NCBI GenBank assembly: GCA_018434685.1
Contig: JAHDOV010000018.1
Span: 1-38,634 of the forward strand
Length of the DNA: 38,634 nt
Source of the DNA: Deltaproteobacteria bacterium
GTDB taxonomy: Bacteria; Desulfobacterota; Desulfomonilia; UBA1062
Direction: 5' to 3'
In this document: piece by piece, positions 36,483 through 38,634 of the stretch
Position numbering within the stretch: the stretch's first letter is position 1
Layout: the number at the start of each line of letters is the position of its first letter
The notes under the pieces: generated by a model
Database searches by the model: none
What the model saw: the letters and a program-made list of their open reading frames with translations, nothing else
What the model was told of the DNA's origin: nothing
Program-made: the position numbers and the translations under genes

Positions 36483-36497
36483 CCTCTGGGGGTTGTG

Positions 36498-37685
36498 GTG
36501 ATCGAGCAACAGCTGAAAGAACTCAAACGCGGTATCGTTGACATCGTTTCTGAAGAAGAGTTTCTCGCAAAGTTGAAGAAGGGGAGGCCCCTGCGGGTAA
36601 AGGTGGGATTTGACCCCACGGCGCCGGATATACATCTGGGGCATACGGTGGTGCTGCAGAAAATGCGGCAGTTCCAGGATGCAGGCCATGACGTGGTCTG
36701 CCTCATCGGTGATTTCACCGGAATGATCGGTGATCCCACCGGGAGGAGTTCGACCCGGCCCCCGCTTACCCGGGAGCAGGTGCTCGAGAATGCCAGGACG
36801 TACCAGGAACAGGTCATCAAGGTGCTCGACCCTCGACGCACCACCATGGCATTCAATTCCCAGTGGATGGACAACATGGTGGTTTCCGAGTTCATAAAGC
36901 TTACCTCTGTCCAGACGGTAGCCCGCATACTCGAACGGGATGATTTCAAGAAACGCTTTACGAACCAGCACCCCATTAGTATCCACGAGTTCCTCTATCC
37001 TTTTATACAGGGGTATGATTCCGTTGCCTTGAAGGCAGATATCGAACTGGGGGGGACGGACCAGATCTTCAACCTGCTCATGGGCAGGGAGGTCCAGAAG
37101 GCATACGGTCAGGAGCCCCAGGTGGTCATGACACTGCCGCTTCTCGAGGGTACGGACGGTATCCAGAAGATGAGCAAGTCGTACAACAATTATATAGGGG
37201 TGGATGATGAGCCCTCCGATATGTTCGGCAAGGTCATGTCCATCTCGGATGATCTCATGTGGCGCTATTACGAGCTGCTCAGCTCCAGGACGATACCCGA
37301 AATAGATCAGATGAAGCAGGACGTGGAGACCGGTTTCCTCCACCCTATGGAAGCGAAAATGAGGTTTGCCCATGAAATGGTGAAGCGGTTCCACGGTCTT
37401 GAGCAGGCCGAGGCGGCAAGGGGCGGGTTTGAGAAGGTCTTTCAGTCCAGATCCTTGCCCGACGATATGCCGGACGTGGTGGTGTCTCTGGAAAAGCCCT
37501 GGATCTGTGCGGTCCTTAAGGAGGCTGGCCTGACCAGTGGCACCTCTGAGGCAAAACGGCTCGTTGACCAGGGTGCTGTACGGATCAATGACGAGAAGGT
37601 CGCAGACCATGAGCAGGTCCTGGAGAAGGGAACCTATATTATCAAGGTCGGGAAAAGACGTTTTGCCCGGGTAGAGGTTAGGTAG
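36498..37685 (+). CDS. tyrS: Tyrosyl-tRNA synthetase
   Basis: Charges tRNA(Tyr). It is about 395 residues, the larger TyrS subtype. The class I HIGH-type motif is [14 protein letters not shown] (about 41-54), followed by [25 protein letters not shown] appears intact in [13 protein letters not shown] (about 225). The C-terminal S4 RNA-binding domain ([42 protein letters not shown]) closes it. GTG at 36498 is five bases from a GGGGG ribosome site; GTG at 36495 is also in frame, giving one more residue. It follows rny by 15 bases. No T-box or leader element is seen, consistent with operon expression. Confidence 0.97.
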
Positions 37686-37771
37686 ATTATTTTAAAATAT
37701 GGTGTAGCTTCATGCTTATAACTGTATGAAAATGTTCAGAATAAAATCATCAAATAAGGCAAAGTTAAGGC

Positions 37772-37800
37772 TTGACAGAACAGGCGATTTACCGTAGAAG
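37772..37800 (+). promoter_or_regulatory. Most upstream rrn promoter (P0)
   Basis: TTGACA (37772-37777), a 17-base spacer and TAGAAG (37795-37800). The -35 is perfect and the -10 weak, the same pattern as the repeat-borne promoters. The predicted start point would fall at or inside the boxA-like element at 37806. Confidence 0.5.
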
Positions 37801-37805
37801 GGGCA

Positions 37806-37818
37806 TGCTCTTTAACAA
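37806..37818 (+). promoter_or_regulatory. boxA-like antitermination element upstream of the array
   Basis: TGCTCTTTAACAA is identical to the boxA element of E. coli rrn leaders as I know it, which binds NusB-NusE and prevents Rho termination. It lies about 580 bases before 16S and upstream of the repeat array, so only transcripts from P0 or from tyrS read-through could carry it. Confidence 0.65.
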
Positions 37819-37852
37819 TGAAAAACATCGAGAACGAGATTACATTATCTAA

Positions 37853-38281
37853 TTGACATATCCGAGTCACTCTATTAGATATGCAACCCGCAGCAGTAAC
37901 AAGGGTTGGAAAAGATAATTGATTTTGGTTAAATTATCTTGTTGACATATCCGGGTCACTCTATTAGATATGCAACCCGCAACGGTAACAAGGGTTGGAA
38001 AAGATAATTGATTTTGGTTAAATTATCTTGTTGACATATTCGAGTCACTCTATTAGATATGCAACCCGCAACGGTAACAAGGGTTGGAAAAAGATAATTG
38101 ATTTTGGTTAAATTATCTTGTTGACATATCCGGGTCACTCTATTAGATATGCAACCCGTAACGGTAACAAGGGTTGGAAAAGATAATTGATTTTGGTTAA
38201 ATTATCTTGTTGACATATCCGAGTCACTCTATTAGATATGCAACGCGCAAGGCAGCAGGGATAAGAAACATCATTTTCCTG
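37853..38281 (+). repeat. Tandem array of 89-90-base promoter-like repeats
   Basis: Units start with TTGACA at 37853, 37942, 38031, 38121 and 38210: four nearly identical full units (89, 89, 90, 89 bases) and a fifth that diverges after about 33 bases. Each has TTGACA-N17-TAGATA, a GC-rich segment (GCAACCCGC), an inverted repeat CAACCC/GGGTTG, and an AT-rich inverted repeat (AAGATAATT/AATTATCTT) just before the next TTGACA, where an UP element would lie. Copies differ by few bases (CCGAG or CCGGG alternating). The units read as tandem rrn promoters, probably amplified by unequal recombination. There is no CRISPR-like spacer diversity. Confidence 0.9.
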
Positions 38282-38311
38282 TTGACAAGATTCGCAGAGT
38301 ATGGTGATAAT
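38282..38311 (+). promoter_or_regulatory. 16S-proximal rrn promoter
   Basis: TTGACA (38282-38287), an 18-base spacer and GATAAT (38306-38311), the best -10 of the series. The start point would lie about 80 bases before the mature 16S 5' end. It follows the last, partial repeat by 72 bases (TTGACA to TTGACA). Confidence 0.7.
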
Positions 38312-38334
38312 GTAAAATTGGGTTTTGTATCGAT

Positions 38335-38348
38335 TGATCTTTGAAAAC
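38335..38348 (+). promoter_or_regulatory. boxA-like element in the 16S leader
   Basis: TGATCTTTGAAAAC closely resembles boxA in Gram-positive rrn leaders (TGTTCTTTGAAAAC type). It is correctly placed between the last promoter and 16S, so NusB-dependent antitermination is likely. Confidence 0.6.
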
Positions 38349-38396
38349 TGAATAGTGGAAGGCGAAATAAGCGTGTTTTACGCGTTTAACGAGATT

Positions 38397-38634
<238 letters not shown>

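Follow-up and report, generated by a model that had tools for sequence, protein, structure and literature searches.

A five-copy tandem array of a putative rRNA promoter upstream of a 16S rRNA gene in a deltaproteobacterial genome

Why is the hexamer TTGACA crowded sevenfold into the leader of one rRNA operon, and do the boxes represent one promoter repeated or several promoters side by side? The question is raised by the end of a 38,634-nucleotide contig (the window, by which we mean the whole stretch of DNA analyzed), contig 55 of a 4.29-Mb assembly in 58 contigs. Direct reading bore out every position and spacing given for these boxes in the first-pass annotation: they begin at 37772, 37853, 37942, 38031, 38121, 38210 and 38282, spaced 81, 89, 89, 90, 89 and 72 bases, and all precede the 16S rRNA gene. 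Tandem Repeats Finder agrees with the further claim that five of them form a tandem array of period 89, reporting a repeat at 37840-38250 with 4.6 copies and 95% matches, and it found no second tandem repeat in the whole 38.6-kb window. The assembly contains a single copy of the array. Seven TTGACA were observed within the 800 bases that precede boxA, compared to about 0.29 expected from Markov resampling. Over the whole window the hexamer is not enriched (17 observed, 19.5 expected), and it is thus the local clustering that is unusual.

Promoter classes and landmarks between tyrS and 16S

All features described here lie on the forward strand. The region begins after an open reading frame (36495-37685) that we take to be tyrS, encoding tyrosyl-tRNA synthetase, the conserved upstream neighbor of the rRNA operon in this family. 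Thirteen relatives match it near full length at 67-85% and two more match in part; the rrn leader lies just downstream of tyrS in 12 of the tyrS-matched relatives, the named ones being metagenome assemblies called Deltaproteobacteria or Syntrophaceae. The 5′ part of 16S (38397-38634; Rfam RF00177, 152.6 bits) starts at about 38397-38404 and is cut where the contig stops, at 38634. Between the last promoter and 16S lies GATCTTTGAAAACTGAATAG (38336-38355), presumably a boxA-type antitermination sequence, which is exact in all 11 family genomes with a 16S start found, the window's own included. No terminator-like site was detected between tyrS and 16S, and a search of 37600-38420 against Rfam at a permissive threshold gave no match, so no known leader RNA was recognized there. 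Judged by sequence, more than one sigma-70-type promoter precedes 16S on the same strand.

The seven boxes are three classes of putative promoter, namely one P1, five copies of P2 and one P3. The earlier treatment of all seven as a single class stands for the middle five, which share TTGACA-N17-TAGATA-TGCAAC, and fails for those at 37772 and 38282, which belong to different promoters. Within the P2 array (37840-38250, period 89-90, delimited by Tandem Repeats Finder and by ranking with a P2 profile), unit 1 spans 37853-37881 (-35 at 37853, -10 at 37876), unit 2 37942-37970 (-10 at 37965), unit 3 38031-38059 (-10 at 38054), unit 4 38121-38149 (-10 at 38144) and unit 5 38210-38238 (-10 at 38233), the -35 of units 2-5 starting at 37942, 38031, 38121 and 38210. 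Unit 1 is the left edge of the array since its upstream flank is the P1 leader, and unit 5 is the right edge. All five units have a perfect -35 and an identical -10 within variable flanks. When a good -35, a suboptimal -10 and a GC-rich discriminator were looked for, the array units read TTGACA-N17-TAGATA-TGCAACC and P1 read TAGAAG-GGGC. The -10 TAGATA matches TATAAT at three of six positions and lacks the last T, and the five units therefore escape a generic sigma-70 scan; this failure counts against reading them as promoters. A -10 lacking its last T, together with a GC-rich start region, is seen in promoters with unstable open complexes.

Direct reading and folding also revealed an AT-rich inverted repeat, AAGATAATT...AATTATCTT, which adjoins the -35 of units 2-5 on the upstream side (first copy at 37912-37940). 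It is possibly an UP-like tract; it is not kept in the units of the sister species, although their -35 and -10 are. A hairpin CAACCC...GGGTTG after each -10 was considered as a part of the unit and rejected, being weak, absent from unit 5 and little conserved in the sister.

P1 (37772-37800) reads TTGACA-N17-TAGAAG with the GC-rich discriminator GGGC, and most family members have at this position TTGACA-N17-TAGA(A/G/T)N and then GC-rich sequence. P3 (38282-38311) reads TTGACA-N18-GATAAT, with 11 of 12 consensus matches, and is the only near-consensus promoter that the generic scan finds in the region. A TTGACA 53-62 bases before the boxA-like site is present in nine of the ten boxA-bearing relatives of the same family, G003 being the exception. 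The P1 leader contains TGCTCTTTAACAA (37806-37818, by direct reading), which we call boxA-like by its resemblance to the E. coli boxA; it is identical in the sister genomes G001 and G002 and lies far from the main boxA at 38336. A similar stretch, GCTCTTTGAA/GCTCTTTCAA, is found downstream of P2 in several other genera (L005, L007-L010). With boxA-like stretches after both P1 and P2, a separate antitermination site may serve each promoter.

The number of rrn operons was also considered. The assembly holds one 5S gene and one 16S start, which suggests a single rrn operon in this genome. The sole 5S gene found (G000:C9:337-453, L278) sits at the start of another contig and is probably the other end of the broken rrn operon. 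Full-length 16S and 23S models gave no match in the genome, so the rest of the operon is absent from the assembly and the count of one operon is provisional.

Family layout and copy number in sister species

Comparison with 12 genomes of the same family shows the usual order to be tyrS, P1, P2, P3, boxA and 16S. Family P1 promoters read TTGACA-N17-TAGAAA or TAGAAG with a GC-rich start, and P2 is typically TTGACA-N17-TAGAAA located about 116-131 bases upstream of boxA. Relative to boxA, the window has P1 at -564, P2 units at -483, -394, -305, -215 and -126, and P3 at -54. The array is a five-copy tandem expansion of the putative promoter P2 between a single P1 and a single P3, which makes the first and last boxes other promoters. 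We scored the region with a profile of nine P2 promoters from other genera in which the -35 hexamer did not count, and the five units came out as the top five positions of 37687-38404; in the rest of the window, on both strands, only 3, 1, 9, 1 and 22 of 75,254 positions equal or beat units 1 to 5, respectively. These comparisons with related genomes lend support to two proposals of the first-pass annotation, that the boxes are rrn promoters and that one promoter has been amplified in tandem.

In G002, which belongs to the same genus, there are two live units with a spacing of 89 bases, the first of which sits 170 bases (81 + 89) from P1. The missing position aligns in exact register with unit 1 of the window, but its -35 is lost. 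G001 has the same 170-base distance, and its contig ends within its first live unit. A decayed first P2 unit, in exact register and without its -35, is present in both sister species (L003 and L006). Copy number in the array had been proposed to vary between related genomes; it does differ between species, with five units in the window and, in G002, two live units plus a remnant. From the 170-base distance and the in-register remnant, the array is most likely older than the divergence of the window species and its sisters, and the number of live units would have changed since.

Units 2-5 are 95% identical to each other, whereas units of the window and of G002 are 65% identical on average, which indicates that copies have been homogenised or renewed within the species. 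Between the window units and the two live G002 units, identity is 100% in the -35 and 92% in the -10, compared to 59% in the spacer, 57% in the upstream 30 bases and 62% in the following 16 bases. Keeping the -35 and -10 while the flanks drift is the pattern expected under selection on these candidate promoter elements. A plasmid collection gave no match, and the exact pattern of the unit core gave none in a genome contig collection from which the genome's own and close records were possibly left out. Elsewhere in the family, in another genus, it is P1 and not P2 that is duplicated, at 77-78 bases (L009, L010). In two relatives, L008 and L014, the spacer of P1 itself ends in TTGACA, giving two -35 boxes 17 bases apart.

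Promoter duplication upstream of 16S across the phylum

We surveyed 142 regions upstream of 16S from the whole phylum, the family of the window included; the assemblies are fragmented and kinship was left uncorrected. Within 800 bases, 6 regions have no TTGACA, 41 have one, 58 two, 23 three, 12 four and 2 seven, the last being the region in the window and L260 from another family. In 13 regions a 60-base stretch is duplicated with a likeness that none of 426 shuffles reached, and 11 of these, from six families including that of the window, have TTGACA in both copies. The clear cases are L002, L010, L219 and L260; the weakest (38-40 of 60) may be partly due to shared promoter elements. Across the phylum, duplications of putative promoters ahead of rrn recur, and the seven-box array is rare. 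The array had been called unusual, which holds for the number of boxes (2 of 142 regions) and less so for the duplication of a promoter, which recurs in six families.

Successive TTGACA gaps in the survey (n = 146) are almost never below 50 bases, with none of 20-50, and their mode is 70-80. The footprint of RNA polymerase is about 75 bases, and the distribution fits promoters that must not overlap when occupied. We also considered whether genomes with fewer rrn operons have more promoters; genomes with a single 16S start and those with several showed no difference in TTGACA number (p 0.53, with copy counts that are poor because the assemblies are fragmented), and such a general rule is unsupported in this sample.

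Individual regions differ in form. L260 (G153:C5:335674-336613) has its own array of approximately four to five units of 112 bases, unlike that of the window in sequence, and by this comparison the two putative arrays are independent. After most of its units comes a hairpin, GTTCGGGA...TCCCGAAC, whose two arms both vary from unit to unit (TTCAGG...CCTGAA and TTCGGG...CCCGAA). In L146, L148 and L149, from one family, three promoter units 125-135 bases apart are followed by a fourth promoter and 16S, and the units viewed read TTGACA-N17-TATAAG/TATAAA-GCGC. L219 (G392:C25:19964-20903) has a 154-base duplication with a TTGACA promoter-like site, in which the best stretch is identical at 60 of 60 positions.

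Proposed function, alternatives and known systems

We consider it likely that the P2 array serves the rrn operon as five co-loading promoters whose outputs are summed and which are controlled by initiation factors. Each P2 unit would start transcription, and the spacing of 89-90 bases would allow polymerases on neighboring units simultaneously. Unit transcripts would read through P3 into the boxA leader, and their sum would raise the ceiling of rRNA synthesis from an apparently single operon. The weak -10 and GC-rich start would keep the units dependent on DksA/ppGpp and on a CarD/CdnL-type protein, while the near-consensus P3 may supply a basal level. The higher polymerase loading and the growth-rate or ppGpp control proposed in the first-pass annotation are thus predictions from sequence. 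Profile searches found two PF02559 matches over cut-off in the genome, one in an open frame of 1133 residues, the size of Mfd, and one in a frame of 175 residues, the size of CarD; PF01258 also matched over cut-off, in DksA-type zinc-finger proteins. CarD, which is known from deltaproteobacteria, works at the rRNA promoters of Mycobacterium and Thermus (PMC4593161). With tandem core-tac promoters in E. coli, expression rises stepwise up to five copies, about 4.4-fold (PMC3293061). In a mycobacterial tandem pair, P1 was suggested to be partly occluded (PMC10218544), and since upstream promoters may be occluded, the activities of the units may not add up.

Neutral tandem duplication is an unlikely alternative, in which slippage or unequal recombination expanded P2, the extra units add little and P3 sets the rate. 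It would account for the decayed unit 1 of the sisters, whose lost -35 indicates that copies can be lost, for P3 alone being near consensus, and for homogenised copies, as recombination between repeats predicts. However, all five units retain a perfect -35 and an identical -10 despite their variable flanks, TTGACA is kept in both copies of 11 of the 13 phylum duplications although neutral ones need not include a promoter, and this is the sole tandem repeat of the window. A second alternative, that the upstream units hold or recycle RNA polymerase near P3 and make few full-length transcripts, appears very unlikely. Homogenised repeated promoters do resemble the rDNA spacer promoters of Xenopus and Drosophila (PMC5765358), but nothing terminator-like separates the units from 16S, so unit transcripts should run on. 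We know of no bacterial counterpart of such a polymerase antenna.

That repeats were collapsed or expanded by a fragmented assembly is highly improbable, even though the contig ends 384 bases past the array, inside 16S, and that of G001 within a unit. The units differ from each other at several positions, G002 repeats this unit with an identical period, and other families have independent arrays, so the artefact that was said to be able to overturn the array is unlikely. The exact number of units may still be wrong, since in this group assemblies are interrupted within 16S and at repeats. Finally, a protein-binding array or a repeated-peptide coding sequence with incidental TTGACA is barely credible: the inverted repeat in the linker of units 2-5 would suit it, but the sister units lack that repeat and yet keep -35 and -10, the single-copy orthologues in other genera are promoter-shaped, and periods of 89, 89, 90 and 89 break a reading frame.

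Returning to the five-copy promoter array, a broader reading, which we put forward tentatively and hold to be somewhat doubtful, is that tandem amplification of a single promoter has happened repeatedly and independently in the rrn operons of this phylum and that the copies are homogenised within a species, such that promoter copy number would let evolution adjust the rRNA output of each operon, either instead of operon number or alongside it. The usual account of rRNA output invokes the number of operons along with the strength and control of their promoters. A set of near-identical promoters whose copy number varies between close species would add a third quantity possibly under selection, a view supported by likely independent counterparts in five other families. 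Promoter arrays tend to be broken or collapsed in short-read assemblies.

Several known systems resemble parts of this arrangement. E. coli rrn P1-P2 also places tandem sigma-70-type promoters before a boxA leader, and in the window, too, a GC-rich class lies upstream and another class closer to the gene. Unlike the window, where one promoter occurs five times between two others, each E. coli operon has two unlike promoters (PMC5179076). In mycobacteria, several promoters precede an operon in a species-dependent number, Mycobacterium chelonae rrnA has five in a hypervariable multiple promoter region, and tyrS precedes one of the mycobacterial rrn types as well; this lineage is unrelated, and near-identical units of constant period are not described in the sections of that source consulted (PMC10218544). 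Halobacterium cutirubrum has five promoters of unequal strength before one rRNA operon, at least one of them growth-rate-dependent (Dennis 1985, cited in PMC4983044), but the promoters and polymerase system there are archaeal. The rDNA of Xenopus and Drosophila likewise has the rRNA promoter repeated ahead of the gene promoter, whereas RNA polymerase I is used there, the spacer promoters are parts of enhancers and there is no homology (PMC5765358). Synthetic core-tac clusters have identical core promoters in series and, in contrast, are man-made, strong and free of rrn-type control (PMC3293061). A natural bacterial rrn promoter array this regular was not found in the open literature, subscription journals being mostly uncovered. 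Taken together, the array is real, yet it is an extension of known tandem rrn promoter arrangements.
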